Shown piece by piece: positions 3,800-43,191 of a DNA stretch of 43,191 bases (positions within the stretch are counted from its first letter, which is position 1; every line of letters starts with the position of its first letter). The translations under genes were made by a program, and so were the position numbers. Origin of the DNA: a virus; IMG/VR virus record IMGVR_UViG_3300042691_017769, positions 1-43,191 of that record; one strand, 5' to 3'. The notes beneath the pieces were generated by a model. It had not been told where the DNA came from. It did not search any database and saw nothing but the letters and a program-made list of their open reading frames with translations.

Positions 3800-3800
3800 C

Positions 3801-4797: not shown

Positions 4798-4802
4798 AAC
4801 CT

Positions 4803-5657: not shown

Positions 5658-5671
5658 CCAACAAAAGATAT

Positions 5672-5700
5672 AAAGGGGAGGACGTATGTTCTCCCCTTTT
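5672..5700 (+). terminator. Rho-independent terminator
   Basis: The arms AAAGGGGAG (5672-5680) and CTCCCCTTT (5691-5699) make a 9-bp stem with a 10-nt loop and a T-rich end. It lies 14 nt after the SSB-like gene. An ATG at 5686 lies in the loop, which argues against that start for the primase. Confidence 0.85.
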
Positions 5701-5715
5701 GTATCTTATTACGCA

Positions 5716-6684
5716 ATGGATATTACCCAACTAAACTCTTTTATGTCTTTGTCCGAAGTAGTAGAATATTATGGACAAGAATCCATAATGGAATACTATT
5801 TTGGTGCATCTATTGTTCTAAATAAACCTCATTGCAATCCCTTTAGACGAGATACTAGCCCAGACTGTTATTTTCATTATACCAAAACAGGGAAACTTAT
5901 CTTTAAGGACTTTGCTTATGGCTCTATGGATTGTTTAGATGTGGCCTCTAAAAGAACTGGCGTATCTGGAGTAGACCTTATAGTAAAAATCCAAGAAGAC
6001 TTTTCTAAGTTTACAGATTTGACCTGTCCTCATCCTCAAATGTCCTTTGAAAAAGCAGTTAAAGAAATTAATGAAACTGCAATAGGGTGCAGATTTGAGC
6101 CCATGACACAAAAGGATTTTGATTATTGGAATTCTTACGGAATAACCAAAGAGTCCTTAGAAAAATACTTAGTAAAAAAAGTAAGCAGGGCTCAGATAAA
6201 TGGAAGAGACTGGTATTTGAAAAACAACATAGATGTTTGCTATCAATACATCAATGAAGGAAAAGTAAAACTTTATCGGCCTTTTGCCAGCAAACTGAAG
6301 AAGTTCCGCAATAATTACAATGAAACTATTTTGCCCGGGTACGAGTATCTCCCTCAAAAAGGAAAAAGTTTATTCATAACTAAAGCAGAAAAAGACATGA
6401 TGACTTTAGATAGTCTGGGCAAAACAGCAATATGTCTAAGGTCAGAAACTTCTTGGGATTTGCCTAAAGACAAAATAGAAAGTCTAAAACAAAGATTTGA
6501 AAGGATTTATGTGTGGCTAGATGCCGATAGGACAGGGAAACAAAGCACAGAAAAAATTACTTCTACTTATGACTTTATCGGTTTAGAACATGACTATGCT
6601 CTAGGTAAAGACTTAAGTGACATTTACAAAAACCATGGAAAGACAGAATTTAAACGAATTGCAAACGCTATTCTCAGTAAATAA
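5716..6684 (+). CDS. DNA primase with TOPRIM domain
   Basis: A DnaG-type primase lays RNA primers for the phage polymerase. The N-terminal region contains HCNPFRRDTSPDC, the layout of the CHC2-type or zinc-less DNA-binding module. The TOPRIM domain shows the catalytic glutamate in TKAEKD (E225) and the metal-binding pair in WLDADRTG (D269, D271). The ATG at 5716 (MDITQLNSFM) is preferred because the in-frame ATG at 5686 sits in a terminator loop. This gives 322 residues, with no helicase domain; the helicase is the separate gene at 2663. TATCTTAT lies 6 nt before the ATG and is only a weak match to the promoter element seen elsewhere. Confidence 0.85.
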   Translation: MDITQLNSFMSLSEVVEYYGQESIMEYYFGASIVLNKPHCNPFRRDTSPDCYFHYTKTGKLIFKDFAYGSMDCLDVASKRTGVSGVDLIVKIQEDFSKFTDLTCPHPQMSFEKAVKEINETAIGCRFEPMTQKDFDYWNSYGITKESLEKYLVKKVSRAQINGRDWYLKNNIDVCYQYINEGKVKLYRPFASKLKKFRNNYNETILPGYEYLPQKGKSLFITKAEKDMMTLDSLGKTAICLRSETSWDLPKDKIESLKQRFERIYVWLDADRTGKQSTEKITSTYDFIGLEHDYALGKDLSDIYKNHGKTEFKRIANAILSK

Positions 6685-6685
6685 T

Positions 6686-7294
6686 ATGTTGTCAGAAATA
6701 ACACGAGGAAGAACAAAAGAACTAATAAAAGATGCCTCTTCATTAGAGTTGGCAAAGAACACATTTATTAGCCATTGGGCCTCTAATGATTTGTGGAGAG
6801 AAACTCTTGAAGCTACATGCGAAGTGTATGATATTCCGGTATTGCTACCTTTAATTCCTCGAAGATGTCAAATACAAGTGACTCCTAAAACGCACATTGC
6901 TCGGATTCTCTACGTTTTTTCTCCAAATATTACGTACATGAAGTTAGCTTTGGCCACTAATAAAAAAGACCATAGCTCAATAATTAACTTATTGACTTCT
7001 TTTGAAGACCAGCTTTCAATAAGTAAATCCTATAGAGAAACCCATAGAAGAATACTTGAAAAGCTAGTAGGAAAAATCCCACACCTTCTTAATACTACTA
7101 TTTATCTTAATAACGTATACAGGTTTTATACTCCAAATACAGAAAAGAATATTTACAATCATGACGAATACACATTGTTATATTACGCCCAGATGGGATC
7201 AAGTGTTATCCGACCTATTGAAGTCCCCGAAATTCCAAGAAACAGGATTGGCAATAGCCAAAGAGAGATTGAACTATCCGGTATTTCCGGATAA
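6686..7294 (+). CDS. Unknown protein, 202 aa, with long overlap into UDG gene
   Basis: The ATG at 6686 follows the primase stop by one base. Alternative in-frame ATGs at 6617 and 6635 would overlap the primase gene. The protein is largely helical with basic patches (RRILEKLVGK, ETHRR) and no recognised motif. Its last 44 codons overlap the uracil-DNA glycosylase gene in another frame for 134 nt, the longest such overlap on the plus strand. Because the glycosylase N-terminus aligns well with its family, the overlap looks real rather than a start error. Function unknown; replication context only. Confidence 0.6.
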   Translation: MLSEITRGRTKELIKDASSLELAKNTFISHWASNDLWRETLEATCEVYDIPVLLPLIPRRCQIQVTPKTHIARILYVFSPNITYMKLALATNKKDHSSIINLLTSFEDQLSISKSYRETHRRILEKLVGKIPHLLNTTIYLNNVYRFYTPNTEKNIYNHDEYTLLYYAQMGSSVIRPIEVPEIPRNRIGNSQREIELSGISG

Positions 7295-7877
7295 ATCAGA
7301 AATCTTTCAAGCCTTTAAGCTAACAGATTTTGATAATATCAAGGCTGTTCTTATCGGGATGGATCCTTATCCTAACAGGTATAAAGGACTTCCAGTAGCT
7401 TGCGGACTAGCTTTTGCCCCACGAAACAACGAATATCTCCCTCCAAGTCTAAAACAGATTTACAATCAGATTGTCAGAAGTTTTTATTCTGACCAAGAAA
7501 CTGACTACCGGCAACTTGATTTATCTTATTGGGCAGAACAAGGAATACTTTTATTGAACACTGCACTTACTGTAAGAGAAGGGCAGGCTGGGTCGCATCT
7601 TAGCTATTGGCAATGGTTTACTACTGAAGTTATTCAAAAAATAAACGAACTTAGTACTGGAGTAGTATTTTGTTTATGGGGCAAAGAAGCACAAAAATTA
7701 GAAACCTTTATTGAATCCCACAACATCATTCTAAAAGCCCCACATCCGGTATCTGCTTCTTATTCAGGTAAATCTTGGGAGTGTAATCACTTTGAATACA
7801 TCTCAAAACATCTAAAAGACGTAAACAACATTGAATTTGAATGGTTAAAACAGCCCAACCCCGCTTCGAGAGCTTAA
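7161..7877 (+). CDS. ung: Uracil-DNA glycosylase (family 1-like)
   Basis: UDG removes uracil from DNA by cutting the N-glycosidic bond. Motif A reads LIGMDPYP, with the catalytic-water aspartate at D68; the usual GQDPYH has Q replaced by M and H by P. ACGLAFAP, PPSLKQIYNQI, LLLNTALTVREGQAGSH and the histidine-containing APHPVSAS follow in family order. The N-terminal WDQVL and ERLNYPVFPDKSEIFQAF match the conserved start of the family, supporting the ATG at 7161 although it lies 134 nt inside the preceding gene. 238 residues, close to the bacterial enzyme. UDG is a frequent component of crAss-like replication modules and pairs logically with ThyX here. Confidence 0.92.
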   Translation: MTNTHCYITPRWDQVLSDLLKSPKFQETGLAIAKERLNYPVFPDKSEIFQAFKLTDFDNIKAVLIGMDPYPNRYKGLPVACGLAFAPRNNEYLPPSLKQIYNQIVRSFYSDQETDYRQLDLSYWAEQGILLLNTALTVREGQAGSHLSYWQWFTTEVIQKINELSTGVVFCLWGKEAQKLETFIESHNIILKAPHPVSASYSGKSWECNHFEYISKHLKDVNNIEFEWLKQPNPASRA

Positions 7878-8164
7878 TAACTCTTGCTCTTAAATACATA
7901 GATTCCTACAAAAGAATCTTTGGAAATGAAGAATTTGAAATCCTTAATAACTACCAAACAATTATTTTAGCTACTCACTCACAACTTAAAGGGCAAAGCC
8001 TCACTAAATACGAGTATGAATACTTAAAAGGAAAGTGTGAAGGCTATTGTGAATTTATAATTGAACTTATAAATTTCAATGTGGTAAAATTGTCTACTCA
8101 AGATGAAACAGTAGGAAACTACGAACTTTTTAACAACCTTAAAACAACTAAAACACTAAACTAA
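7841..8164 (+). CDS. Unknown helical protein, 107 aa
   Basis: Starts MVKTAQPRFESL with a 37-nt overlap with the UDG gene and ends in a TAATG overlap with the DUF932 gene. It is strongly helical (ITLALKYIDSYKRIF; KYEYEYLKGKCEGYCEFIIEL), with no signal or transmembrane segment and no recognised family. Tight coupling on both sides indicates it is translated with its neighbours. Confidence 0.6.
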   Translation: MVKTAQPRFESLITLALKYIDSYKRIFGNEEFEILNNYQTIILATHSQLKGQSLTKYEYEYLKGKCEGYCEFIIELINFNVVKLSTQDETVGNYELFNNLKTTKTLN

Positions 8165-9099
8165 TGAACATCGAATCATTCCTCGACCCACAAGAAACCC
8201 TGTTGGTAGAACAACCTGAGTCTTCTATTGACTTAGTAAAAATCAAAACTCTCTTAGACAAAAGCAACACAAATTGGCAAGTAGAGAAGAAAGAACTTTT
8301 TGGCCCAGATGGAGAACCTACTGATTTGTTTGGCATTTTCCGTCAAGACACGAAAGAATGTTTTGGCGCAGTAAAAAGCAAATACGTTCCAACTCAGAAT
8401 TGGGAAATAGTAGAATTGCTCTTAGAAGCCGGAGAGAAAGTAAAAATTAATGCAGAGCGTGGGGGTCTCTTAGACGGAGGACGTAAAGTGTATTATCAGT
8501 TTAAGCTCGAGCCTGTAAAGATTGCTAACTCTGAAAATTTGCGTTATCTCACAGGATTGAGTTCGCATGACGGCAGCGTAGGTATTGGCTTTGGCACTAC
8601 CAACGTAACTGTAGTATGTCAGAACACATTTTACCGCGCACTCAGCGATGTAAGTAAAGTAAAGCACACTATGAACTCTCGAGAAAAGCTAAACCAAATT
8701 GTTGCTAGTCTTCAAATTTCAATGCAGTCAGAATATACACTGATTGAGAATCTAATTGAAATGAGCAAAATGAGTATCCCTTCTAAACTCAGCGATGAAG
8801 CAATTATGAAGCTCTTTGGTCTTACCGGCGAACCTTTGACTGCTTCTACTCGTACTAAGAATGTCTTTGAACAAGTAAAAGATGCTATTCAAATTGAACA
8901 AAACACCCACGGAGAAAATGCTTATGCTCTCTTTAGTGCAGTAACTCGCTACACTAACCACATTAAAAAGTACCGGAGTATAGATACTAAGCGAAGTGCT
9001 ATCATGTTAGGGGCTTCCCGAAACATTGTAGACCAAGCTTATGATTGGCTGTATGAAGGTGCTAAATCTGAAAGGATTGAAGAACTTATCTTAGGATAA
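8164..9099 (+). CDS. DUF932 / phage-plasmid-like protein (TIGR03299 type)
   Basis: 311 residues matching the DUF932 family, widespread in phages and plasmids and of unknown biochemical role. Typical features in order: FRQDTKECFGAVKSKYVPTQ near residue 60-80, GGRKVYYQFKL around 105, a glycine-rich SSHDGSVGIGFGTTNVTVVC around 130-150, and the C-terminal RTKNVFEQV...TNHIKKYRS segment. The family often sits next to recombination and replication genes, as here. It closes the primase-UDG unit; a terminator follows 18 nt after the stop. Confidence 0.85.
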   Translation: MNIESFLDPQETLLVEQPESSIDLVKIKTLLDKSNTNWQVEKKELFGPDGEPTDLFGIFRQDTKECFGAVKSKYVPTQNWEIVELLLEAGEKVKINAERGGLLDGGRKVYYQFKLEPVKIANSENLRYLTGLSSHDGSVGIGFGTTNVTVVCQNTFYRALSDVSKVKHTMNSREKLNQIVASLQISMQSEYTLIENLIEMSKMSIPSKLSDEAIMKLFGLTGEPLTASTRTKNVFEQVKDAIQIEQNTHGENAYALFSAVTRYTNHIKKYRSIDTKRSAIMLGASRNIVDQAYDWLYEGAKSERIEELILG

Positions 9100-9117
9100 G
9101 ATTGGCACAGAAAATCA

Positions 9118-9148
9118 GGGGTAGGGTTGTCCTACCCCTTTTTTTCTT
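9118..9148 (+). terminator. Rho-independent terminator overlapping a promoter
   Basis: GGGGTAGG (9118-9125) pairs with CCTACCCC (9131-9138) around a 5-nt loop and is followed by seven T. Its loop contains the TTG that can serve as the -33 element of the next promoter. Confidence 0.9.
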
Positions 9149-9157
9149 TTATTTTTG
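9127..9157 (+). promoter_or_regulatory. Bacteroidota-type promoter for the ninG-polymerase unit
   Basis: TTG (9127-9129), a 20-nt spacer and TATTTTTG (9150-9157), a full match to the TAnnTTTG consensus. Only 6 nt separate it from the ATG at 9164, so the transcript should be leaderless or nearly so. The -33 element lies inside the terminator hairpin loop. Confidence 0.7.
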
Positions 9158-9163
9158 GCCCTA

Positions 9164-9730
9164 ATGTTTGAAAAGAAAAAATATACCCAGAACCCTAACG
9201 CATGCTCAGTTTGCCATAAAGAAAAGCTTTTTGCAGTTAAGTCTAAGAAGATATGCGTTACTTGCAACAACAAGGCAAAACAAGAGAAAGTCAAACAAAA
9301 AAGATTAGAAAAGAAACAAAAAAAGGCTCTATCACATAAAACGTTAGTAACGCAATTAGATAGAATTTTTAGTCAATATGTTCGCATTTCTAACATTGAA
9401 AAAGACGGATTGGTAAAATGCTATACTTGCGATAACCGTCTTCCTTACAAACAGATTCAATGTGGGCATTTTCAGTCAAGACGATATATGTCTACACGAT
9501 TTCATGAAGGGAATTGTAGGCCACAATGCTATGCTTGTAATGTAGGAAAATCTGGAGAACAGTTTAGATTTGGGCTTAATCTAAATGAAGAGATTGGCGA
9601 AGGCCATGCAGAATCTATGGAAAGACTTGCCCAAGAAGTCAAAAAATTTACTCCTGAAGAAATGTTAGAACTAATTCAATACTTTGATAAAAAGCTTGCC
9701 CAAGTAAAAACAGAAAAAGACGTTTGGTAA
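9164..9730 (+). CDS. ninG: NinG/Rap-like recombination nuclease
   Basis: Resembles lambda NinG (Rap), a structure-specific recombination endonuclease. An N-terminal zinc ribbon (CSVCHKEK ... CVTCNN) is followed by a lysine-rich helix (about 45-65). The core is CYTCDNRLPYKQIQCGHF, then SRRYMSTRFHEGNCRPQC and YACN, giving the paired Cys and His residues of the NinG HNH-like centre. 188 residues from the ATG at 9164; a TTG nine bases earlier is not needed. It lies directly ahead of the DNA polymerase gene with a TAATG overlap. Role in resolving replication or recombination intermediates is inferred from the family. Confidence 0.85.
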   Translation: MFEKKKYTQNPNACSVCHKEKLFAVKSKKICVTCNNKAKQEKVKQKRLEKKQKKALSHKTLVTQLDRIFSQYVRISNIEKDGLVKCYTCDNRLPYKQIQCGHFQSRRYMSTRFHEGNCRPQCYACNVGKSGEQFRFGLNLNEEIGEGHAESMERLAQEVKKFTPEEMLELIQYFDKKLAQVKTEKDVW

Positions 9731-11748
9731 TGAACATATACTTACTAACTAGTAACCCCTATGTAGTCAAGTTAGTAAGTGGTACTAACTTGCTATTAAC
9801 TACTCTTAATGAAACATTAGACTTTTTAAATTCTCGAGAATCACTAGACTTTGACATTGAGACTACCGGATTAGATCCTCACACAGATGAAATAAAAACC
9901 TTGCAGTTCAGAAATGGAACTGATTGTTATCTTATTGATTGTTTTAGTTACCCGGCTCGAGTATTTAAAGAGCCTTTAGAAGCAAAGCTTATCATTGGGC
10001 ATAACCTCAAGTTTGATTTACAGTTTCTTTATTCTGCCGGAGTAATACCTACTAAGATTTACGACACTTACGTAGCAGAAACAGTTCTTTATTTGGGAGA
10101 AGATACTCGAAGAAAAAGTCTGGCAAGTTGCGTAGAAAGATATTGCGGAGTAATTCTAGATAAGACTGAACAATCTAACATTCAAAAAACATTTACTCTC
10201 CCTTTTCTGAAGTATGCGGCTACTGATGTGTTTTATTTGTCAGAGATTAAAGCAGAACAAGAAAAACGAACAGAAGAAAAAAAATGCAAAGTAACTATTG
10301 AACTTAACAATAGGTTTGTAAAAGTTCTTGCCTACACTGAATGGTGCGGCCTTAAACTAGATTCCTACAAATGGACACTAAAAACTGAAAAGTACAAAAA
10401 AGAACTTACTGAAATCAAAAAAGAACTTGATAATTTTATTGTTGAGAACAAGATTAACAAGTTCATTAGCCCCCAGACTTCTATGTTTGATTCTAACTTG
10501 GTTACTATTAATTGGAATTCATCCGACCAAGTTATTCAAATCTTTAATCATTTAGGTTTAGATATTAAGACCAAAGTAGATGGAGAAATAAAAGAAAGCG
10601 TAGCAGAGACAGTAATAGGAAAGTATGCAAAAGATAACAAGTTTGACAAGTTTGTAAAAACATACTTGCACTATAAAGAACTTCAGAAAGATATAAGCAC
10701 GTACGGAGACAACTGGCTAACTATGCTTAATCCTTCTACAGGCAGAATACATACTAGTTTTAAACAGTTGGTAAACACAAGCCGCATGGCTTCTGGCAGC
10801 AAGTCTGAAAAGAACAAACCTAATCTTCAAAACATACCTAGTGATGAAGAAACAAGAAGCTGTTTTGTAGCAGAAGAAGGGAATGTAATTGTAGGGTGTG
10901 ATTATAGCCAACAAGAACAAGTAGTGCTTGCTAATAAAAGCTTAGATGCAAACTTGCTTGAGTTCTTTGATAAAGACATTGGAGATATGCACAGCTTTGT
11001 AGGCAGCAAGATGTATAGCAACCCTGATTCTTCCTTATATGTAAAAGAAACTGAAGGTTTAAGTCTTACTGAATTCAAAAAGAAGTTCCCTGATTTAAGG
11101 AATAAAGCCAAGATGGCTGGGTTTACTATTAACTATGGTGGCACAGGGGAAGGTATGGCCAGTAAGCTAAATATTCCTGTAGAAGAAGGTGTGGCTATTT
11201 ACAATTCTTATTTTGATGTGTTTCCTAAAATGAAGCAATTCTTTGATGATGCCAAAAAGAAAGGTCTAGAAAAAGGTTACATTTTGATATCAGAGATTAC
11301 CGGCTTGAAATATTATATCCCTGATTGGGAAAAACTAGTAGCTACTAAAAAAGCTATGACCCCTGAATTTTGGGAAAGGTATAAAAAACTAAAAAACGAA
11401 AAAACTCCAACAGCAAGAGAACTTCAAAACAAAGTAAGAGACTACTTTAAAAGTATGTCTAGCATAGAAAAAGCATCTCTTAACTATCCTATCCAAGGAG
11501 AGTCTGCAGAGATGACTAAACTAGCTGGGATTTATTTCTTTGACAAGTACATACTCCCTAACAATCTTTTTGGCATAGTTAAGATTGTGAATTTTATTCA
11601 TGATGAAATCTTAATAGAAGGCCCCGAGACTATGAAAGAAGAACTTGCAGAAAACTTAAAAAAGGCCATGCTTGATAGTGCAGACAAGTTTTGTAAACGT
11701 GTCCGTATGAAAGCAAGCCCAACTATTTCAACACATTGGCAAAAATGA
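9730..11748 (+). CDS. polA: DNA polymerase, family A, with 3'-5' exonuclease
   Basis: The replicative polymerase. The proofreading exonuclease is intact: DFDIETTGL (D42, E44), GHNLKFDLQF (about residue 93) and KYAATDVFYL. The polymerase motifs follow: motif A DYSQQEQ starting at D391, motif B with R457 and K461 in RNKAKMAGFTINYGG, and motif C HDE at residues 624-626 holding the second catalytic aspartate. 672 residues from the ATG at 9730, which overlaps the ninG stop as TAATG; there is no 5'-nuclease domain. Family A polymerases occur in one part of the crAss-like phages and family B in others, so this is a useful lineage marker. The stop overlaps the helicase start as ATGA. Confidence 0.95.
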   Translation: MNIYLLTSNPYVVKLVSGTNLLLTTLNETLDFLNSRESLDFDIETTGLDPHTDEIKTLQFRNGTDCYLIDCFSYPARVFKEPLEAKLIIGHNLKFDLQFLYSAGVIPTKIYDTYVAETVLYLGEDTRRKSLASCVERYCGVILDKTEQSNIQKTFTLPFLKYAATDVFYLSEIKAEQEKRTEEKKCKVTIELNNRFVKVLAYTEWCGLKLDSYKWTLKTEKYKKELTEIKKELDNFIVENKINKFISPQTSMFDSNLVTINWNSSDQVIQIFNHLGLDIKTKVDGEIKESVAETVIGKYAKDNKFDKFVKTYLHYKELQKDISTYGDNWLTMLNPSTGRIHTSFKQLVNTSRMASGSKSEKNKPNLQNIPSDEETRSCFVAEEGNVIVGCDYSQQEQVVLANKSLDANLLEFFDKDIGDMHSFVGSKMYSNPDSSLYVKETEGLSLTEFKKKFPDLRNKAKMAGFTINYGGTGEGMASKLNIPVEEGVAIYNSYFDVFPKMKQFFDDAKKKGLEKGYILISEITGLKYYIPDWEKLVATKKAMTPEFWERYKKLKNEKTPTARELQNKVRDYFKSMSSIEKASLNYPIQGESAEMTKLAGIYFFDKYILPNNLFGIVKIVNFIHDEILIEGPETMKEELAENLKKAMLDSADKFCKRVRMKASPTISTHWQK

Positions 11749-13184
11749 TATTAACAGAAGAACAACAGATAGCAATTTATGCAGCAAAAGAATTCATAAT
11801 GAACGGTAAGCCAGATGAGTACTTTCTCATTGATGGAAAAGCCGGTACAGGTAAGACTACTATTGCATCAGAAATTGTAAAACAATTCAAAAACAAAAGA
11901 TGTGCAGTGGCCGCATTAAGCCACAAAGCGAAGTTTGTCATTATGGATAAATTTCAAGCCCAACAGATTGATGCAGAGTTTTTCTCTTTGGCTGGGTTGC
12001 TAGGGATGAAATATGATTTTGATACAGGCACATTCAGCGCACGAGCCAGATACATTCCTATCTTAGATTATGACCTCATTATTATAGATGAAGCATCTAT
12101 GATTAACGAAGAGGCACTGGAAATGATAATGAATGAAAAGAGAAAAACCGCTAAAGTATTATTCTTAGGAGACATTGGGCAGTTGCCTCCAATAAGAGAT
12201 TCAAACTCTCCCTATTATCACGAAAAAAGCGATTTGTTTGGACTGAAGTCTCCTGTGTTTGCAACTAAAAACAAAGCAACTTTGCATACACGCATTCGTC
12301 AAGGAGAAGACTCTCCAATACTTCCTTATGCAGATTATTACTGGAATAACTCAGTTAAAGAGTTTATGCCGGTATTAGAACCTTGTACTGATGCCACTAA
12401 CATTATTACAAACAAAGGCGCATTACTCTTTAGTAAGACAATTAAAGAGCTTAGTGATATCCTCGTAAAGGCATATCAAAATGCAGTTGAAGCCTCTAAT
12501 CCTAATCATGTCAAAATAATTGTGTATAGGAATGAAGTAAGAGAGGCTCTTAATCAAGCTATCCACAAAAGAATATTTCCAAACAGCGAAGGACTATGTG
12601 CCGGAGACTTAATTATCTTCAATGGAAGATGTGGAGATATTGAGAATGCTACTGAAGGCCAAATAACTAACGTAGGTAATATCACAAAAGATGATTACGG
12701 AGTCTATTATGTCCCTCTTTCTATTCGTATTCCAAGAATCAAAGACCTACAAATTGTAGATTATGCACTTCCTCAATCTAGGGCTACTCATAAACGTATT
12801 GTCTCTGGACTGTTTTCTCAAGCAAAAAAGTTGCAAGGAAGTTCAGATTATTATTCAGCAATAGAAGCAGCTACTAAGTACAAAGAAAGGTATGCTAATA
12901 TTGATTTTGGGTATGCAATATCTTCCCATAAAAGCCAAGGATCTACATACGATATTGTAGTAGTATTTAAAGATGATATTACTCAGGTCAAGATGATTGG
13001 AAATAAAGAGAAGAGCGAATCTATTTATACCGCACTTACCAGAGCAAGGAACATTGCTATTATCATTTACGAAAAGTCCGAAGCAACTTCAAACTTTAAA
13101 GAGCTGGATTTAACGGCTCTGTGTAATACAATAGACGAACAGAAAGATGTCAAAGCAAATATCAATCCCGGCTCAGATAACTAA
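11745..13184 (+). CDS. SF1 DNA helicase, RecD/Dda-like
   Basis: A superfamily 1B helicase (5'-3' type) that would help with strand displacement or recombination. Motif I is DGKAGTGKTT (about residues 30-39), motif II LIIIDEASM, motif III LGDIGQLPP, a later YRNEVREALN, motif V YAISSHKSQGSTYD and motif VI YTALTRARN. The order and content match Dda and RecD2-type enzymes. 479 residues from the ATG at 11745 (ATGA overlap with the polymerase). An in-frame TTG at 11736 is less likely. It overlaps the next gene by 38 nt. Confidence 0.92.
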   Translation: MILTEEQQIAIYAAKEFIMNGKPDEYFLIDGKAGTGKTTIASEIVKQFKNKRCAVAALSHKAKFVIMDKFQAQQIDAEFFSLAGLLGMKYDFDTGTFSARARYIPILDYDLIIIDEASMINEEALEMIMNEKRKTAKVLFLGDIGQLPPIRDSNSPYYHEKSDLFGLKSPVFATKNKATLHTRIRQGEDSPILPYADYYWNNSVKEFMPVLEPCTDATNIITNKGALLFSKTIKELSDILVKAYQNAVEASNPNHVKIIVYRNEVREALNQAIHKRIFPNSEGLCAGDLIIFNGRCGDIENATEGQITNVGNITKDDYGVYYVPLSIRIPRIKDLQIVDYALPQSRATHKRIVSGLFSQAKKLQGSSDYYSAIEAATKYKERYANIDFGYAISSHKSQGSTYDIVVVFKDDITQVKMIGNKEKSESIYTALTRARNIAIIIYEKSEATSNFKELDLTALCNTIDEQKDVKANINPGSDN

Positions 13185-13593
13185 GAATCATTTAGATAAA
13201 TGCGTAATAAAAGTAGACCCTAAACTTTCTCAAGAATACCTTTCAGAGATTTTAAAGAATGACGTAATTGTAGATGTGCAGCTCTCTATTACCAAGATAG
13301 ATACTTTAAAAACAAATGCACAACTCAGATACTTTTTTGGCGTAGTATATCCTATTATTAAGTTAGGACTTGAAGACATAGAAGGGATAACCCTTAAAAA
13401 GTCTGAAGTCATGTCTATTCTTAAAGAAAGATTCTTTTCAGAATTTTCTTTTGACAAAAATCAAGAAATAGAAAAGTCATTAGCTGATGCCTCTAAAGAG
13501 GAACTGTCTAAATTTATTGAGGCAGTAATCAAATTTGGCGAAGACTTTCTAAATGTAACAATTCCAGAACCCGAAAACCTAAACGAACTGTAA
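13147..13593 (+). CDS. NinB-like or related recombination accessory protein
   Basis: 148 residues. The segment TNAQLRYFFGVVYPIIKLGL at about residues 56-75 resembles the N..Q..Y..G.V.P pattern in phage NinB-like recombination mediators, followed by a helical part with a KSEVMSILKERFFSEF stretch. It lies in the same operon as ninG, the polymerase and the SF1 helicase. The NinB assignment rests on one pattern and context, so it is tentative. It overlaps the helicase gene by 38 nt. Confidence 0.45.
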   Translation: MSKQISIPAQITKNHLDKCVIKVDPKLSQEYLSEILKNDVIVDVQLSITKIDTLKTNAQLRYFFGVVYPIIKLGLEDIEGITLKKSEVMSILKERFFSEFSFDKNQEIEKSLADASKEELSKFIEAVIKFGEDFLNVTIPEPENLNEL

Positions 13594-13596
13594 ATC

Positions 13597-13860
13597 ATGG
13601 TAGAAATCTATCAAGTAATCACTCCTGAATTTGTTAAACAACTTGCCACTGAGGTTAAAAACTCAGGGGGCAGTTGGGTTAACATCAAAGCATGTCCTCA
13701 GTGTCAAGTAGGCTACACTGTTACTCCGTTTGATAACGGAGACGTGATAGCTAAGTTTGACCGGCCTGTAACCGACGGCAAGTTCACTGCCCGACGTTGG
13801 AAAATTTTGCCTGTATCTAAAAGAAAGCCTGAAGGAGAAATGTTAGCACTTCGTAAATGA
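13597..13860 (+). CDS. Unknown protein with CPQC motif, 87 aa
   Basis: Starts 3 nt after the preceding stop. It contains a single CPQC knuckle near residue 28 followed by beta-type sequence (VGYTVTPFDNGDVIAKF) and a basic C-terminus (RRWKILPVSKRKPEGE). With one Cys pair, zinc binding would need a dimer or other ligands. No family is recognised. The stop overlaps the next start as ATGA. Confidence 0.6.
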   Translation: MVEIYQVITPEFVKQLATEVKNSGGSWVNIKACPQCQVGYTVTPFDNGDVIAKFDRPVTDGKFTARRWKILPVSKRKPEGEMLALRK

Positions 13861-14102
13861 AAGCTAATCTTAAAATAGGCACTCAAATCGTAGAAGTAGA
13901 AGTAAAACGAAAACCCATATGGTGGCAATTAAAAAATCTTTCTTTTAGTGCTACCGGCTATGGAAGTCGTATTCCTACTGAATACATGGTAAAACACAAC
14001 AAAAGATGGAAAAGAGTTTACTGCAGAATTTATAGTAACTCTGGAACTCTTTTTATTGAACAAGACAGAAAACCTTTTGCAATCGTAACAATATACACAT
14101 GA
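13857..14102 (+). CDS. Unknown small basic protein, 81 aa
   Basis: Basic, beta-rich protein (VEVEVKRKPIWWQLKN; RWKRVYCRIYSNSGTLFI), possibly a small barrel binding nucleic acid. Its start and stop are both coupled to neighbours through ATGA overlaps. No family is recognised and no catalytic motif is visible. Confidence 0.6.
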   Translation: MKANLKIGTQIVEVEVKRKPIWWQLKNLSFSATGYGSRIPTEYMVKHNKRWKRVYCRIYSNSGTLFIEQDRKPFAIVTIYT

Positions 14103-14194
14103 GCATATTATCCGCACTTGGCATTATTGCCTTTATTGTATTGATTATAAATATTTACAAAGATTCTAAAAACAACGAAGATGGAAATTCCTAA
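14099..14194 (+). CDS. Small single-pass membrane protein, 31 aa
   Basis: A 31-codon frame whose ATG overlaps the previous stop (ATGA) and whose end overlaps the nuclease gene by 14 nt. It reads MSILSALGIIAFIVLIINIY followed by a short charged tail, giving one clear transmembrane helix. It fills the gap between the two flanking genes exactly. A membrane protein inside a replication operon is unusual; it might be a small inhibitor or anchor, but nothing shows this. Confidence 0.55.
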   Translation: MSILSALGIIAFIVLIINIYKDSKNNEDGNS

Positions 14195-15173
14195 AACATA
14201 CAAAAACGACGAAAGCTTAAACCAAAGCAAACTAAAGAGGATATTAGAACATCCTCGTTTATTTATTGAAGAATCTTTTGAGTCAGAATTTGACGAGCCT
14301 AAAGACCATCTTGACATTGGAGACGCAGTAGATTTACTTCTTACTGGAGCAGAAAGAGAATTCCACGAAACTTTTGCTGTATCTAAAGTGCCGCGACCGG
14401 GAGGAAATATGGGGGATTTTTGCTGGGCAAAGTTTAAGTATCGTGACTTTGATACTGCAGACAAACTTGCTTATGACGAAGTAGGAATCAAAAGACCCGC
14501 CACTGTAGAGGCATATCTTGAAAAGTTTGAAGTAGAAGGAAGAGCGTATTATGATGAACTTGTAGGAAACGCAAGTAAACGACTATTGACTCCTTCTAAA
14601 TATGAGACAATTACTCGTATAGTAGAGAGCATCAAAAATAACCCTGACGTTTACAAACACATTAATCCAGAAAACGAAGAATATGAAATACATTTTCAAG
14701 TACCTCTTTATTTTCAGCTTAATGGGGTGAAATGTAAAGGATTGTGTGATGCAATCAAGATTCATAAGCAAACAAGAGAAGCTACAGTCCTGGATGTTAA
14801 GACTACCCGATATTCAGTAAGTAACTTCCCTTTGTCATTCTTTCAGTTCAGATATGATTTTCAGGGAGCGTGGTATTGTTATGGGCTTGATTACGATGTA
14901 GAAACCAGAACACGTTTAAACATCAAAGATGTAGCTTCAAAAGTAATTTTTGTCGTAGGCAGTTCTAAGTTTCCTGACCAATCTCTTGCTTATCATATGG
15001 AGGCTAATCTTGTTCATGCTGCAATGATTGGATATCCCTATAACGGAAAGCCAAAAGAAGGAATATACCGAGCATTAGAAAGATTTAGGTATCATTCTAA
15101 GATAGATAAGTGGGATTATAAAATGGAAGAATATGAAGAGGGGTTTAATTTACATTTGAAACTAAATGGATAA
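14181..15173 (+). CDS. PD-(D/E)XK exonuclease (RecB/Cas4-like fold)
   Basis: A phage exonuclease of the PD-(D/E)XK superfamily, probably supplying single-strand ends for recombination. The active site is visible as CKGLCDAIKI with D190, then VLDVKTTR with D205 and K207 (D-x14-DxK), followed by the QxxxY-type RYDFQGAWYCYGL segment characteristic of the exonuclease clan. 330 residues. The N-terminal NQSKLKRILEHP is common in this group. It corresponds to the conserved PD-(D/E)XK gene of crAss-like replication modules. It overlaps the small membrane protein before it and the unknown gene after it. Confidence 0.88.
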   Translation: MEIPKTYKNDESLNQSKLKRILEHPRLFIEESFESEFDEPKDHLDIGDAVDLLLTGAEREFHETFAVSKVPRPGGNMGDFCWAKFKYRDFDTADKLAYDEVGIKRPATVEAYLEKFEVEGRAYYDELVGNASKRLLTPSKYETITRIVESIKNNPDVYKHINPENEEYEIHFQVPLYFQLNGVKCKGLCDAIKIHKQTREATVLDVKTTRYSVSNFPLSFFQFRYDFQGAWYCYGLDYDVETRTRLNIKDVASKVIFVVGSSKFPDQSLAYHMEANLVHAAMIGYPYNGKPKEGIYRALERFRYHSKIDKWDYKMEEYEEGFNLHLKLNG

Positions 15174-35607: not shown

Positions 35608-38600
35608 CTAGAGGTCGCACGCTTCTTCTATAAATCCTAAGTCTTCAATGTCTTTTGTAAAAGGAGGTAAGTTATCAATGATGTCTTCCATTTCATTTAT
35701 AGGAATGATAGGTTGAGCTTTTTGTACATTAGAAACAGAACCGATAAACTCTTTAAATCCTTCTATATCTTGTTTACCTGTATCTAAGTATTGAGAGTAT
35801 AGTTGTAGAGCTTGTTGTTTTTGTTGTGGGGGTATTGTAGAGGTAACTTCAAAGTAATCCCCTTTATCTATAGCAATACCTTTATCTATTAAAGATTTCC
35901 AAACTCTACTTGCAGAATCATTTATATCTTGTTTGCCAAAAGCTTCTGATTTTAAAGTTTTGCCTTCTTCTGCTAATTTATTTGCAAGAGCTAAATAAAC
36001 TTTTGTACCAAATCCTTTACCTTGAAATTCTTTTTCTAATTCTACTCCAGCTATTCCTATAGAAGATGATATATAGCCTTCATTATCTACAGAGATAATT
36101 CCTGCATATTTACCATTTATTTTAATAGGATAAGATATTGCTTCTGGATTATCTGGATTAAATCTTGGTTTATCTAAAGTGACATTAGAAACACTTTGAA
36201 ACCCTAAAGCTTCATACACTTGATTAGCTAATTCAGGATTAGAATCAAATAGTTCTTCTACTCCGGGTTTTATTTTAGAAACAGATTCAGTATAAATTTT
36301 AGTTCCATATTGAACAAATCCTCCTACAAGTTCATCTACTTCCGGTTCTGTTAAATCTTTTCCTGTGAATTTTTTAATCCAATTTTTTATTGAATTTATG
36401 AGTTCTTTCCACCAAGAAGGTTTAGGTTTGTCTGTTAAAGTTTCTGCCCATCTTGCCGCAAGTTCCATTAACAATTTTGCTTTACCCTCTTGACTATCTA
36501 AAGTAAAGCCATAGTCAAACATTAACTTTTCTAAAGATTTATGCCCAGTACGCCCAAGTAACTCAGGCAGTTTTTTCATTAGTTGAGATTCTGCAGCAAA
36601 AAGAACATCTTTTAATTCTTGTAATCCTCCAAGTTCTTTAGCCATTCTAATCATTCCTCTGTGAGCAACTTCATGAATAGCTACTTTGCCAGCTTCTGGT
36701 ATTGGAGTATTAGAAGAAACCACTACTACTTTATCTGTTCTTGGGTCATAATATCCTTGTATTAATGCTGTATTAGTTAAAGAAAAAGGCAAATCTGCAA
36801 GGTATGTTGGATTTTCATTAACCCATTGCTCATAAATAAATTGGAGGTCTGGAAATTCTACTTGTACTAAATCGTCAAGATATTTAAAAACTCTTGGGTC
36901 TTTTGTTACTGCTTGTCTAATTAATTCATGATAGTAATCAGTTCCAAAAGGAGTAACTTCAGTTATATTGAAAGGTCTATGGTTAACAGCTAAAGTAAGT
37001 ATTTGCTCATTTTGTTGCATTTCTAAAGGGAAATATTCAAAAAAATTAAATACTTCATTTCCACTAAGATGTACTTCTTCTAAAACTTTTTCTACTGTAT
37101 CAAGTGAGGTAATGCGGCGTTGTATATCATAATAATAGTCTGGGGCATCCTCAAAATATAAGTCATTGTCTGGCCTCATACCTTCTAAGTAATCTAGATA
37201 TCCTTCGTCTTCTATTTGATCTATATCAGTTTCATTTCTACTTTTTGCCGCTATTGCTCTATCTAAACTAGGATTGTTTTTATCTAAATTGTGTTTTTCG
37301 AAGAAAGCAAGAGTGTCCTCTAAATGGTCAATAGATGCCATTCCATTGTTTGCTCGAGAAGTTACTTCTTTTACTTTACGAGGTTTACCGGAAATTTCTT
37401 CTGGTTCTACTTCAATTCCAGCTACAGTTACCCCATTAACAATAAGAAGATAGTTATCATAGTTTGCGACGTAATAATCTGACATAGCGCCAGATGTGCA
37501 CCAAGTATGAGGAGAAAGTTTTTTAAGTAAGTCTATATTCCTAGTATATTCTTCTGAATTTTCAAAAGAAGTTTTTGGAATATGTATCCAATAACCTGTA
37601 TTACTTGCAGAAGGTTCATGTGTTACTGAATCTGAAACTGAAGCAACTGCTTCTAAATCATATAATTTTCCTAGTCTATTCGCCTCATGTGGCTTATTCA
37701 TTAATATACCATAGGTATTTTCTAAAGCTAAAGGCGAAAGTTGTAATACATATTTTGATTTTCTATTAGGGTTTGTAAGATACTTAACAGCATGAGCTAA
37801 CATAATATCTCGAAATACTATTGGGTATTTTTCTAAAGCAGACTTCCAATTACGAAAACTTTCTAATGCAAGTTTATTACTCTTAAATTCCACATATTTA
37901 TTTTCATCTGCTTTCCTATCATAAGATTTTTTTAAAATCTGTTCTAATTGTTCGTTGCTTTTAATTCCTTTAATATTCGCTAATCGGTCTTTGTTAATAC
38001 CTACCCAATTGACTAATAATAAATCAGTAATGCCGTTTTCTGCCAAAATATCCTTAATGGCAAAAAAGATATTTGTATTTCCTAATACATAACTAGGAAC
38101 TTCTTCTACAATTTCAATGCTGTTATAAATTTCAATGGGAAGTTTTTTAATTTCATTTCTGAATTGAGTATCTCTATTAGATTTTTCTTCATAAGAATCT
38201 TCTTTTTGGGCTGCTAATGCATCGGCATAACTAGGATATACTTCTCCTCCGTAAATAAACTCTGAACTGCTCCTTTTTTCTATTCCCTGTTCTACATCAA
38301 ATGTAGGCTGAGTTAGTTTTTTACTTGGACTAAGAGGAGGCAAAAAATCTTCAATAGCAATTTCAGATTTATCTGTTCTTTGAGAGAACATATCTAATTG
38401 AGTAGGAGCGTTAGGAAATGCTTGCTCTAAACTTTTTTCGTTGTTCTTTACTTGGTATGCCTTTAAGAGGCTAGGACTTACAGTCACTTGTATAGCTCCC
38501 CCATCATTATACCTTTGGTATCCAAACGTATCCCAAAACTTCTTTTTATTTATACCTAATTCTCGGTAGATAGCAGATATTGTTTTATCTATTATTCGTT

Positions 38601-38766
38601 TGAGTTTATAAGGTTCATTTTTAGATTCTACGGAACTGTTTACCGGCAAAAAGATTTCACCTATCCTACTTATAGAAAAACTAGAATCAAAAGATTTAGC
38701 TATAGGGAGAGCTTTTTCTAGTAAAGCTTTTTTTATTTCACCGGGGGTAATGTTACATCCAGACAT
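35608..38766 (-). CDS. Large multidomain cargo-type protein: metallopeptidase and GNAT domains
   Basis: 1052 residues from the ATG at 38766, 5 nt after the RNA polymerase stop; a TTG at 38784 is possible. Domains in order: a helical N-terminus; a region around 330-500 with SPHTWCTSGAMSDYYVANYD and a following beta segment, of unknown fold; a zincin motif HEVAH at 698-702 with nearby MELAARWAETL; then a GNAT acetyltransferase domain (about 890-990) with the acetyl-CoA loop EFQGKGFGTKVY. The metallopeptidase part is built like that of the next giant protein. Likely packed in the virion with the RNA polymerase. Substrates of both enzymes are unknown. Confidence 0.72.
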   Translation of the reverse strand: MSGCNITPGEIKKALLEKALPIAKSFDSSFSISRIGEIFLPVNSSVESKNEPYKLKRIIDKTISAIYRELGINKKKFWDTFGYQRYNDGGAIQVTVSPSLLKAYQVKNNEKSLEQAFPNAPTQLDMFSQRTDKSEIAIEDFLPPLSPSKKLTQPTFDVEQGIEKRSSSEFIYGGEVYPSYADALAAQKEDSYEEKSNRDTQFRNEIKKLPIEIYNSIEIVEEVPSYVLGNTNIFFAIKDILAENGITDLLLVNWVGINKDRLANIKGIKSNEQLEQILKKSYDRKADENKYVEFKSNKLALESFRNWKSALEKYPIVFRDIMLAHAVKYLTNPNRKSKYVLQLSPLALENTYGILMNKPHEANRLGKLYDLEAVASVSDSVTHEPSASNTGYWIHIPKTSFENSEEYTRNIDLLKKLSPHTWCTSGAMSDYYVANYDNYLLIVNGVTVAGIEVEPEEISGKPRKVKEVTSRANNGMASIDHLEDTLAFFEKHNLDKNNPSLDRAIAAKSRNETDIDQIEDEGYLDYLEGMRPDNDLYFEDAPDYYYDIQRRITSLDTVEKVLEEVHLSGNEVFNFFEYFPLEMQQNEQILTLAVNHRPFNITEVTPFGTDYYHELIRQAVTKDPRVFKYLDDLVQVEFPDLQFIYEQWVNENPTYLADLPFSLTNTALIQGYYDPRTDKVVVVSSNTPIPEAGKVAIHEVAHRGMIRMAKELGGLQELKDVLFAAESQLMKKLPELLGRTGHKSLEKLMFDYGFTLDSQEGKAKLLMELAARWAETLTDKPKPSWWKELINSIKNWIKKFTGKDLTEPEVDELVGGFVQYGTKIYTESVSKIKPGVEELFDSNPELANQVYEALGFQSVSNVTLDKPRFNPDNPEAISYPIKINGKYAGIISVDNEGYISSSIGIAGVELEKEFQGKGFGTKVYLALANKLAEEGKTLKSEAFGKQDINDSASRVWKSLIDKGIAIDKGDYFEVTSTIPPQQKQQALQLYSQYLDTGKQDIEGFKEFIGSVSNVQKAQPIIPINEMEDIIDNLPPFTKDIEDLGFIEEACDL

Positions 38767-38771
38767 AATGT

Positions 38772-41700
38772 TTATCCTTGACAATCAGGGTTAATATCAG
38801 TTAAGTTATCTACGTCGCCTTGAGTAGGAGGTTGAATTTTGGGATTAACAAATTTAGCAACCTGTTCTATAATAGTTTCAAGAGTTACTAAGTTTTTTTC
38901 ATCTGAGGGCATTCCTGCAAATCCTACACTAACAGCAAACTGTTTTTGTAATTCTCTTAAAATATTTTCAACAGTTTCTTGAGTTGGAACTGAACTTAAA
39001 TAACTTGTTGGGCCGTTAGGGTAAGAGTTAATAAATTCTTCTATTTGTTCTGCAGTTACTGTCGTCCTGTATTCGTTTGTTATTTGTTCTGCAGCCAATT
39101 CTAAATCAGTGCCTTTTTTATCTTCTGTTGCTTGGTAAAAACGAACTCCGGGAAAATCAGCTATCCTACTTGCGCCAACAATTCTACTTATTTCTTTTTT
39201 GGAAATCTTACCTCCTTCTTTAAAAAATCTAGCTATTACATCGTTAGTTCCCTCTAAGTAAATTTCGTCTATCGGGAATCCCTCTTTGCTCTCTTTTAAA
39301 CCTATGTATGCATTAGCTATTAAACCGGGTTTTTGAGAGTTACTTAAAAGAAGGCTCTCTGCATATTCAAGATAAGATTCTGCACTATATCCAGATTCTT
39401 TTAAAAACGCTTCCATGTCTTCAAAGTCTGCTTTTGAGTTTTCGTAAAAGACAGTGTGAAGATTGTTATCATAAGTAAAATAGCCTTTAATCACAGCTAT
39501 CTTTCTTTCAAATGTTTTAGCTTTTGTTCCAGATACTTCAGATTGTAATTTAGACAAATTGAATACTGTGCCGCTTCTTTCTATCTCGTAAGCATATTTG
39601 TATTCATCAGTAATAACTGGAGGAGAAGTAGGCTTACTTGTAGATTCAGACGAAACAATGGGCTCAGAAGATTCAAAAGTCTTTTTATAAACATCTCGAA
39701 TTGCTTGCATAGCTTTTTGAGACTTAATATCTCCTACGTATTGTTTCCTAGGTTCCCATTGTTTAGTCTCTTTATTTTGTACGTTATAGAGTTCAATATC
39801 TCGTGTTCCTACTCCGGCAAAATTCTTTGTTAGTACAGGGATATCTATAGGGTCAAACCATCCGTCATTATACTTAGTCCACCTTTCGTTCTTTGTGTCC
39901 CAAACATATACAGGTTTTCCTAACTTTATTCCTAATTGAACTGCTGTATTTGTCCCGCCTTTTACTACCCATTTGTAAGAGTTTACTGATTTAGTACTAT
40001 CAGTGAGATTTTTAGGAGCATCCTTATCTACTACTTGAACAAGTTCTCCAATGGCAAATACAGCATCTGCATTAGCTACTTGATAATAATTACGAACCTG
40101 AAGATTGCCTTCTAGAGTGTCTGAATATTCTATGCCAAGTATGTTTTTTATTTCTGCTCGGGCAGCATCCATTTGCTCTTTAGATAGAACAGTTGCTGTA
40201 ACTCCTTTATCTCGTAGTTTTTTAGAGAGAGATTGATTTTTCTCTTCTCTATAATGACGATGTTGAGTTACTCCAAATTCTCTTCCAATTAAATCCCAAA
40301 AAGTATCTCCGCCATAAGCACCTCCAGAATGATTTACATACTCTTTAGGATTCCTAATAGGCTCATAAACTACACTAGGAGCAGTAGGTGCTTGTGGAGG
40401 TTGTTGGGGAGTAGGTTGAGCAGGGGGAGCAGACTGAGTACGTTGAGAAGAACCCTTTTCTATATAGCCGTGTACAAAAAGTCTCTTATCTGCATCAGTA
40501 GTAACATATAGTTGATTTCCTATTGCCGTTAAATAAGATTCTCCGGTATATTTTCCCGGAGTAGGTTTTCTTTCAAATGTGGTTTTTACTCTTTCATATG
40601 CAAGTTGAGAGTTTTCCGCCCATAGGTCTACCGGAACAAGGTCAGCTCCTTTCAAACTAAACGGAGAAAAAGGAGCTCCCAAGTTAAAATAATGCGACGC
40701 CAATAAAATGTCTTCTACTATTCCTTTTATTCTTGAATCTCCAGAGTTTCTTAATTCTTCTATAGCTATTTTGATAGCAGACTTTGTTTCATCCTCTACT
40801 TTATCAGTAAGACGAAATTCTGTAAACCTTGATTTTTTATCTGGATTAAATGGGTCTAAAGGGTCTGATAGTTCTACAGAAGTAGGCTTAATCATAGAGA
40901 TAAAAAGATTGTTCCTCAATAAATCAGAGAATTCGTCTTTTAATTCTTCTAGGTCTTTTACTATCTGAGATTGTCCGTTGACTTCAAAAAACGTCCCAAC
41001 TTTATTAAGATTAGTAGAGAAAAAATACCTTTGGTGATTCCCTCTAAAACTATCTTCATTTAAAAGTTGAGCATAAGAAATCATTATCTCTTGGTTTTTC
41101 TTGTTGAGATAGTTTTTTCTTTTTGTTGAAATGTCGGGTATTGCCCTTCTCTGATAAACTGTTTTTGCAAATTCTGGGCTAAAAGTTATTGGGAACATAA
41201 ACCTAAACAAAGAGTTTATATACTCAACTTGATTGAATTTATTCAGTACATTGTCTTCCCTTGGATTTATTAGCTTGTTAACATTTGTAAAGGCTTGGCT
41301 TAATTCCTGTAGTTCTTCTTGGATTGAAATTACCTCAATAGGGTCAGGATATCTAGCTGTGTTAAAATCTGTTCTACTTGTCAGTTTTCTAATTGAGTCT
41401 TGAAAATCTAATACTACGGCAAGTTGATGCATAGCTAACAACTGTTTAATTGGGTTTATAAACTGTTGGTTTTCATTAAAAAGATTTTTTAAATCAGAAA
41501 AAACTTCTTCCGTATTTAGATTAGGGCTATTGTTTAAAGCATTACGTACAATAGCATTCAATTCATTTAGAGTTCTAACAGGTCTTATTTTTGAAAAGAA
41601 CTCAATAGTTTCTGCATCTTTTATTTCTCCCGCTGTTATAGCTCCTTTTATTGTAGATATAAAATCTGAAACTTGGTTAATTATCTTTACTCTGTCTCTT

Positions 41701-43191
41701 CCGAATAGTCTTCCTTCTGTAGTTCTGGTAATCATTGATACTACCAAAGGATTATTTAAAAACTTAAAGACTATCTCATGATTTGTCCCCTTAAGAAGCA
41801 TAGCATGAGCAGTCGGAGTAAGCAAGTCAGACATACCTAATCTTAAAAGGTAGTCTTCATTTCCAGCATCTACGTGACCATTGATAAACTGATTTAGTAT
41901 TTCAGAGATGGTAACTTCTTTTCCATCTTTGAAATGAATCATTCCAATAGGGATATTTCCATTTTCTTTCTTATTTGACGGGAACAGATAAGCATCTCCT
42001 AGTACAGTTTGTTCGTCGCCAGTGTATCCTCTTATTTCTATACCGGCTTGTTGGAACATTTTATGCATAGTATTCATTTTTGCATCAATGCCCAAGGCAG
42101 AACGTGCTAATATGTTTTCACTGAATATCCGGTAAGATGTAGTAGGACTGAATACATCCATTGCAGATATTGGAGCAGACTTAGTTTCTTTAGCTAGGTC
42201 TTTTAAATTGGGGCTGTCATTAGGCTTAACAAGATTTAAATAGTTTTCTTGTAAAGAAAGCATAGTATGCATTACTTCCATAATCTGGTTTTCGTAATGC
42301 AACGGAAGATTATTATTTGCGATATAACTATCTAAAGCTCGTGGGGTCAAACTAAGAATCTGGTCTGCAGTTTCAGATATAATATCTTTACCTGATGCTG
42401 ATTTTTTTGGAAGCTCTCCTAACTTTGGATTAGCAAGAGTACCATTAATAAGTGACAGACTCTCGTATAAGTCTTGAAGCTTTTTCTTTTTTTCCTCTGG
42501 ATAACTTTCAGGAAGTATGATAAGAATCTTTTTGAGTTTCTCTCTATCCGCTAACAAAGTATTCTTTTTAACTTCTCCTTCTTTTTTTAACAGAGAAAGA
42601 TAATCTTTTGTAGTAGCGGTAGACTTAATTACTTTTCCATTTTTATCTAAGTTAGGATAGTAGACAGTAAGTTTATCAATGTCGTAATCTCCCCCAGACT
42701 TAGTTACAATCTGAGGAGGAAGCACAATCAAGTTACCGGCAGAAGAAGGTAAGAATTTTTTTACCCTCATACTTTCCATACTTGGAGCTCCTTGTACTGG
42801 AATCCTTACGCCGGTATAAGATAACTGAGCATCATGTTCTTCTACCCATTCAATATCTTGGGGGTTCTTGCTAGATAAGATTCTATTTAAAAGAGTAATT
42901 GGGTTTTCGTAATCGCCTAGTTTCTTTTCTCCATATTTAAGATTCAAAAGAGGCCCGTGTTTTTTTGGATCCCACGCAACCATTATTTCCATTTTCTGTA
43001 CTTTCCCATTTACAAGTTTGTAAAACTGTAACGTAGGGTCATACTTTATTCCCTTTCCTTCTTTTGTAAATTCCTTTACGTTTCTTTTTCCTAAATACGG
43101 AGTGTTTGCCGCTTGAATAAGAGAATCTCCACGAATAGAAAGAGAGATTATATTTTTGGTGACAGCATTAAGTACTGCTTGATATACTCTT
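38772..43191 (-). CDS. Virion RNA polymerase (crAss-like), 5' end outside window
   Basis: At least 1472 codons; the frame is open to the window edge, so the N-terminus is missing. The catalytic loop GGDYDIDK (aspartates at 42675-42689) is preceded by RIPVQGAPSMESM...FLPSSAGNLIVLP, the same order as the conserved RxP...P...DxDxD strand of beta'-type double-psi barrels. DxDID loops are known from the crAss-like virion RNA polymerase, which transcribes early phage genes after ejection. A Pro/Gln-rich linker (about 40360-40455) then leads to a SLOG-like domain (about 39665-40345; SGGAYGGDTFWDLIG, NADAVFAIG, VKGGTNTAVQLG, NFAGVGTRDIEL). The beta-type barrel should lie upstream of the window. Confidence 0.85.
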   Translation of the reverse strand, partial: RVYQAVLNAVTKNIISLSIRGDSLIQAANTPYLGKRNVKEFTKEGKGIKYDPTLQFYKLVNGKVQKMEIMVAWDPKKHGPLLNLKYGEKKLGDYENPITLLNRILSSKNPQDIEWVEEHDAQLSYTGVRIPVQGAPSMESMRVKKFLPSSAGNLIVLPPQIVTKSGGDYDIDKLTVYYPNLDKNGKVIKSTATTKDYLSLLKKEGEVKKNTLLADREKLKKILIILPESYPEEKKKKLQDLYESLSLINGTLANPKLGELPKKSASGKDIISETADQILSLTPRALDSYIANNNLPLHYENQIMEVMHTMLSLQENYLNLVKPNDSPNLKDLAKETKSAPISAMDVFSPTTSYRIFSENILARSALGIDAKMNTMHKMFQQAGIEIRGYTGDEQTVLGDAYLFPSNKKENGNIPIGMIHFKDGKEVTISEILNQFINGHVDAGNEDYLLRLGMSDLLTPTAHAMLLKGTNHEIVFKFLNNPLVVSMITRTTEGRLFGRDRVKIINQVSDFISTIKGAITAGEIKDAETIEFFSKIRPVRTLNELNAIVRNALNNSPNLNTEEVFSDLKNLFNENQQFINPIKQLLAMHQLAVVLDFQDSIRKLTSRTDFNTARYPDPIEVISIQEELQELSQAFTNVNKLINPREDNVLNKFNQVEYINSLFRFMFPITFSPEFAKTVYQRRAIPDISTKRKNYLNKKNQEIMISYAQLLNEDSFRGNHQRYFFSTNLNKVGTFFEVNGQSQIVKDLEELKDEFSDLLRNNLFISMIKPTSVELSDPLDPFNPDKKSRFTEFRLTDKVEDETKSAIKIAIEELRNSGDSRIKGIVEDILLASHYFNLGAPFSPFSLKGADLVPVDLWAENSQLAYERVKTTFERKPTPGKYTGESYLTAIGNQLYVTTDADKRLFVHGYIEKGSSQRTQSAPPAQPTPQQPPQAPTAPSVVYEPIRNPKEYVNHSGGAYGGDTFWDLIGREFGVTQHRHYREEKNQSLSKKLRDKGVTATVLSKEQMDAARAEIKNILGIEYSDTLEGNLQVRNYYQVANADAVFAIGELVQVVDKDAPKNLTDSTKSVNSYKWVVKGGTNTAVQLGIKLGKPVYVWDTKNERWTKYNDGWFDPIDIPVLTKNFAGVGTRDIELYNVQNKETKQWEPRKQYVGDIKSQKAMQAIRDVYKKTFESSEPIVSSESTSKPTSPPVITDEYKYAYEIERSGTVFNLSKLQSEVSGTKAKTFERKIAVIKGYFTYDNNLHTVFYENSKADFEDMEAFLKESGYSAESYLEYAESLLLSNSQKPGLIANAYIGLKESKEGFPIDEIYLEGTNDVIARFFKEGGKISKKEISRIVGASRIADFPGVRFYQATEDKKGTDLELAAEQITNEYRTTVTAEQIEEFINSYPNGPTSYLSSVPTQETVENILRELQKQFAVSVGFAGMPSDEKNLVTLETIIEQVAKFVNPKIQPPTQGDVDNLTDINPDCQG

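Follow-up and report, generated by a model that had tools for sequence, protein, structure and literature searches.

Gene content of the fragment

The virus contig IMGVR_UViG_3300042691_017769 is probably a fragment, and its 43,191 bp are referred to here as the window. On the minus strand, a reading frame open at the window edge encodes the C-terminal part of an RNA polymerase (RNAP) related to those of crAss-like phages, with a SLOG domain placed behind the RNAP core and a Pro-rich linker, and two further large genes follow it (Table 1). A crAss-like replication block lies on the plus strand; the replication and transcription blocks are convergent, as in named crAss-like genomes, and the primase, which matches crAss-like and Flavobacterium phages, is of the crAss type. 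The structural block of the Crassvirales (MCP, TerL, portal, tail proteins) was not found among the scanned proteins of the 43-kb fragment, so that membership of this virus in the order Crassvirales is probable rather than proven.

The protein encoded directly after the RNAP, of 1058 residues, is a mosaic. Over its first ~137 residues it matches the product of a ~210-aa gene located after the RNAP in relatives, and its C-terminus holds a GNAT-like domain. Parts of giant gp65-like proteins at two other loci (L062 and L071) match residues 210-829 with 49-59% identity, identity to relatives being about 25-30% elsewhere in the RNAP block; this stretch is possibly another exchanged module, in addition to the SLOG domain described below. 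The next gene encodes a gp65-like protein, whose presence in the RNAP's own block is a membership feature of gp66-type RNAPs.

Several other properties of the fragment were recorded. DNA polymerase A (9724-11748, plus strand) is closest, at 46%, to that of cyanophage Lbo-JY46 of Leptolyngbya, where the gene is interrupted by a LAGLIDADG gene, and the primase and helicase also match this cyanophage. The whole of Lbo-JY46 was searched for the RNAP or SLOG and gave no match above chance; a cyanobacterial host was therefore not inferred. Positions 20001-24000 have a G+C content of 0.48-0.52, compared with about 0.35 elsewhere, and adjoin the gene of a 957-aa protein whose C-terminus resembles tail fibres, which suggests an acquired cassette. 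PADLOC returned nothing.

Table 1 Features of the window and the evidence for each.
Feature	Position	Strand	Evidence
crAss-like replication block: thymidylate synthase, DnaB, Sak4, primase, UDG, PolA, Dda helicase, exonuclease	295..15173	plus	profile/sequence matches
gp65-like 'RNA polymerase associated protein', 2207 aa	28942..35565	minus	phi14:2 gp65, E 4e-17
Zincin motif HELAH in the gp65-like protein	34794-34780	minus	sequence
Mosaic 1058-aa protein, overlapping the RNAP stop	35608..38784	minus	Pfam, comparison with relatives
Zincin motif HEVAH, centre of the 1058-aa protein	36675-36661	minus	sequence
Putative virion RNAP polyprotein, C-terminal 1472 aa, 5' end open at window edge	38772..43190	minus	crAss-like matches, 6VR4
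C-terminal region of the polyprotein, aa 1181-1472	38775..39650	minus	without recognised family
SLOG (DprA/YpsA-like) domain, aa 950-1172	39675..40343	minus	phrog_768, E 7e-7; blast
Pro/Gln-rich linker, aa 913-941	40368..40454	minus	sequence
Segment matching gp66 3' of the barrel (6VR4 aa 1395-1773)	41211..42518	minus	profile domain 5, i-E 1e-6
beta'-type double-psi barrel region (DPBB-A), aa ~22-177	42660..43127	minus	alignment, 6VR4 profile match, model strands
DYDID catalytic loop, aa 168-172	42675..42689	minus	aligned with D1361-FDID-1365 of phi14:2 gp66
FLPSSAGNLIVLP	42755-42717	minus	sequence
RIPVQ	42806-42792	minus	sequence

A crAss-like RNA polymerase core

An earlier sequence-only reading had described RIPVQ, an SM helix, FLPSSAGNLIVLP and GGDYDIDK on the minus strand in the spacing of a beta'-type barrel, with an intact DxDxD triad. 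All of these motifs are where it placed them, with the spacing seen in phi14:2 gp66, tikkala, cr4, cr55, cr118 and others. An alignment of the window protein with eight crAss-like RNAPs showed G21, Q26, R129, P131, S137, L147, G152 and G166 to be invariant together with the three aspartates of the triad (D168, D170 and D172), which are likewise invariant across the aligned crAss-like RNAPs. In the structural model described below, the barrel region comprises strands 22-28, 58-72, 124-147, 154-157 and 173-177. From its position, we infer that the matching segment 3' of the barrel is the bridge helix/trigger loop region. Profile searches (Pfam among them) with the C-terminal residues 1181-1472 gave no significant match.

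We compared the RNAP core with 50,697 phage records by tblastn. Matches were obtained in 109 records, and the 60 matches listed all come from crAss-like phages or their close allies; the match to phi14:2 gp66, the enzyme of crystal structure 6VR4, covers 77 residues at 40% identity (E 1e-5). The window protein alone was a poor query: a scan for close relatives found nothing, phmmer against PDB found no relative, and a Pfam scan returned weak matches only and no RNAP domain. When an alignment was used as the query, 80 IMG/VR relatives were fetched, with at most 39% identity in the best segment. A profile built from the window and 20 of the IMG/VR relatives, without gp66, matched 6VR4 with an E-value of 7.9e-14, in the region of the DxDxD loop as well as further downstream; an E-value from a profile that contained gp66 was set aside for that reason, and gp66-free profiles were used. 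An AlphaFold2 model of window residues 1-880 gave 6VR4 as its sole significant PDB match in Foldseek (E 1.4e-13, prob 1.00), with a mean pLDDT of 67, below 50 in the DYDID segment, and low global TM-scores. The low TM-scores and loop confidence are likely due to the lack of the N-terminal half and to uncertainty in how the domains pack.

Direct sequence matches, the PDB profile search, the fold search and the gene neighbourhood thus all bear out the proposal of a phi14:2 gp66-type virion RNAP, and the suggested comparison with gp66 led to 6VR4 by profile and by structure prediction alike. A fold lacking a double-psi barrel around DYDID, named in the same reading as grounds for abandoning it, was not seen, insofar as the model there matches 6VR4. 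A relation to YonO-type enzymes, its other suggestion, found no support, as nothing YonO-like scored among the Pfam, PHROG, PDB or phage matches. The description of the core as divergent holds with respect to cellular RNAPs but not within the crAss-like RNAP family, where such divergence is ordinary. The sequence-only reading recognized the core correctly but overlooked the SLOG domain and the mosaic make-up of the downstream proteins.

Other polymerase types were also considered. QDE-1, P23-45 gp96/gp64 and YonO share the two-barrel single-chain plan according to the literature; none gave a significant match in PDB searches with the window RNAP. Profile and fold searches with the window protein found no match to the T7-like single-subunit polymerase domain of N4 vRNAP, and an identity as cellular-like beta/beta' pairs was not supported.

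The window protein resembles gp66 of Cellulophaga phage phi14:2 in barrel sequence and spacing, in the DxDxD triad, in the downstream segment and in the gp65-like protein that comes after it. It differs in that overall identity in the shared region is about 20%, the loop reads DYDID instead of DFDID, an extra C-terminal part of ~600 aa carries the SLOG domain, and the 1058-aa mosaic gene separates the gp66-like and gp65-like genes. The IMG/VR crAss-like RNAPs L014-L030 have the same following genes and at most 39% identity in the best segment. Their full-length proteins have 2242-2874 aa, L028 being the best full-length match to the window; unlike the window protein, most are without a SLOG, and that of L028 belongs to another subtype (35% identical). 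Two variants were noted among crAss-like RNAPs. In the L098 frame (2-12103, plus strand), a crAss-like barrel contains GSDFDGDK, which has the DxDGD pattern known from cellular RNAPs. The RNAP gene of crAssphage cr4_1 (L002:4134-17609) has 38 in-frame stops under table 11, and its core segment was aligned with TAG read as Gln, in agreement with known recoding.

The frame is indeed open to the window edge with its true start outside, as had been proposed: 167 residues precede the DxDxD loop in the window, compared with 1468-1833 in full-length relatives, and the ATG at 42992, the ORF start listed by the program, is internal to the frame, since relatives extend far upstream. Accordingly, the window would lack roughly 1300-1450 N-terminal residues if the protein is like its nearest kin, and somewhat more if it resembles longer relatives. 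Upstream conserved columns, which include gp66 K1027, S1029, K1065, Q1100 and Q1116, are common to 23 full-length proteins (20 IMG/VR relatives and three named crAss-like RNAPs), and a profile of full-length relatives without gp66 matched 6VR4 (E 3.6e-12). In a model of L028 residues 860-2000 (mean pLDDT 71, low global TM-score), strands cluster at 307-407 and at 557-709, and DYDID lies in the latter cluster. The sole significant match of this model was again 6VR4 (E 8.4e-18); cellular beta' chains and AR9 nvRNAP came next but did not reach the threshold. A second barrel, which the sequence-only reading expected in the full-length protein, is thus supported for the family by homology and by the model of a relative; for the window virus, a second barrel beyond the end of the fragment is an assumption based on relatives that are about 30% identical.

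A SLOG domain on virion polymerases

The SLOG assignment is based on one PHROG match, weak Pfam matches and conserved loops. The profile match (PHROG 768, DprA-like, E 7e-7) spans residues 950-1100 and was extended to 1172 by blast. The loops NHSGGAYGGD and GGT are intact in the window, SGGAxGxD and GGT being conserved in members of the family and shared with the YpsA/DprA-like superfamily; Pfam cpYpsA matched 6 of 17 family members weakly, below the Pfam cut-offs, and PDB sequences gave no match to the domain. In contrast to that superfamily, the window SLOG stays below the Pfam cut-offs and is fused to an RNAP rather than standing alone.

Scanning IMG/VR with the SLOG domain alone retrieved 14 loci, 13 of which have a crAss-like RNAP in the same frame; three loci (L099, L100 and L106) seem to represent a single virus. 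Of the GenBank phages, cr113 encodes a SLOG together with the RNAP motif in a single CDS. The family also occurs within N4-type virion RNAPs of Schitoviridae, i.e. in Klebsiella phage Pylas, where the SLOG lies at 974-1169 and the N4 vRNAP match starts from 1392 (E 9e-166), and in Alteromonas phage PT15-A5. These are likewise virion polymerases fused to the same SLOG family, but they are N4 vRNAP homologues with a T7-like single-subunit fold and no two-barrel core. Vibrio phage VH-8 has a standalone copy. The domain is C-terminal in most carriers and ~2200 residues upstream of the core in L099 and L106; none was seen in close relatives such as L014-L027. We found no published description of a SLOG-virion polymerase fusion among the open-access papers searched.

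The window SLOG is 52-65% identical to those of 13 other crAss-like RNAP polyproteins, whose barrels are 27-49% identical to its own, and SLOG and barrel identities are uncorrelated over 14 proteins (Spearman -0.005). L028, L043 and L066 have RNAPs close to that of the window (48-54%) and SLOGs only 33-35% identical; L094, L097 and L104 have barrels 27-30% identical and SLOGs 56-61% identical. An RNAP tree joining the window to carriers of its SLOG subtype was rejected (p-AU 1e-31) and a SLOG tree joining the window and L028 was weakly rejected (p-AU 0.026), both values being tempered by long branches and by groups chosen after the data were seen. Because the SLOG and RNAP trees conflict, the SLOG looks like an exchangeable module; the plain reading of these sequence comparisons is that it would have passed as a unit between polymerase lineages, apparently including the crAss-like and N4-type virion RNAPs.

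Discussion

The frame very probably encodes roughly the C-terminal half of a gp66-type crAss-like virion RNAP, as known from phi14:2, with a tethered SLOG module. Homology, the intact triad, the fold match, the neighbourhood, and the fusion and exchange of the SLOG underlie this reading, and from these we infer polymerase activity, virion packaging and early transcription for the window protein, as well as a ligand and a role for the SLOG. For phi14:2 and crAss001, published accounts describe an active polymerase, early transcription that resists rifampicin and the occurrence of the polymerase proteins in virions, and model ejection via the tail by partial unfolding (PMC10136315, PMC10172136, PMC7886860). 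By homology, the window RNAP would enter the virion along with the gp65-like protein, be ejected before the DNA or together with it, and refold to transcribe early genes without the host RNAP. Its active site would be formed by two double-psi barrels in one chain, with the other barrel supplied by the off-window N-terminal half and the catalytic Mg ions held by the DYDID loop.

Non-virion two-barrel enzymes exist, e.g. in Thermus phage P23-45 (PMC10770324), and the window RNAP could similarly be made during infection and not packaged. We consider this very unlikely, as the nearest members with data are virion proteins (phi14:2 gp66/gp65 by annotation; crAss001 gp47/gp49/gp50, PMC10172136), and the giant size and zincin-bearing neighbours fit ejected cargo. 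It is still less probable that the protein is a degenerate, inactive polymerase retained as a structural polyprotein: the window does sit on a long branch of the RNAP tree (1.76), but the triad is preserved, as are R129, P131, G152, G166, K173 and the other positions invariant in the family, and no stop interrupts the frame over 1472 codons. Short acidic motifs are common, yet the spacing and flanks of DYDID match crAss-like RNAPs and 6VR4 was recovered by sequence profile and by fold, which refutes the idea that the motif arose by chance in an unrelated phage protein and leaves that reading a negligible probability.

The recurrent SLOG fusion is the part that specialists might not expect, and the function considered here is a hypothesis. 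Viral SLOGs have been surveyed as mostly standalone, with other fusions listed, and were proposed to counter ADPR-type immune signals (PMC9503650). Tethered behind the core by the Pro-rich linker, the SLOG would most likely be an independent, exchangeable module, probably injected cargo, that may bind or process a signal derived from a nucleotide (of the ADP-ribose type) just after a cell is infected; a counter-defence role is plausible. As a full proposal, a mobile, virion-delivered counter-defence module carried on whichever RNAP is injected and neutralising an ADP-ribose-type immune signal before phage gene expression, we hold it only tentatively. The domain might instead be a regulatory sensor of the polymerase itself, reading e.g. 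a host alarm nucleotide and tuning early transcription. Its covalent attachment to virion polymerases of two unrelated folds is in keeping with this, and Iyer et al. proposed SLOGs as sensors controlling fused nucleic-acid enzymes (PMC9503650). A sensor nevertheless seems unlikely to us, given that the position of the domain in the chain varies, that SLOG identity varies independently of polymerase identity, that close relatives have no detected SLOG and that VH-8 has a copy on its own.

In summary, the RNAP is a divergent member of an already known family, which it widens to a divergent, mostly uncultured clade. One small domain occurs fused to virion polymerases with two folds that are unrelated and, on the plain reading, was exchanged between lineages, suggesting that such polymerases also serve to deliver other cargo, and the SLOG is a concrete candidate for a counter-immune activity that would be delivered before phage gene expression.
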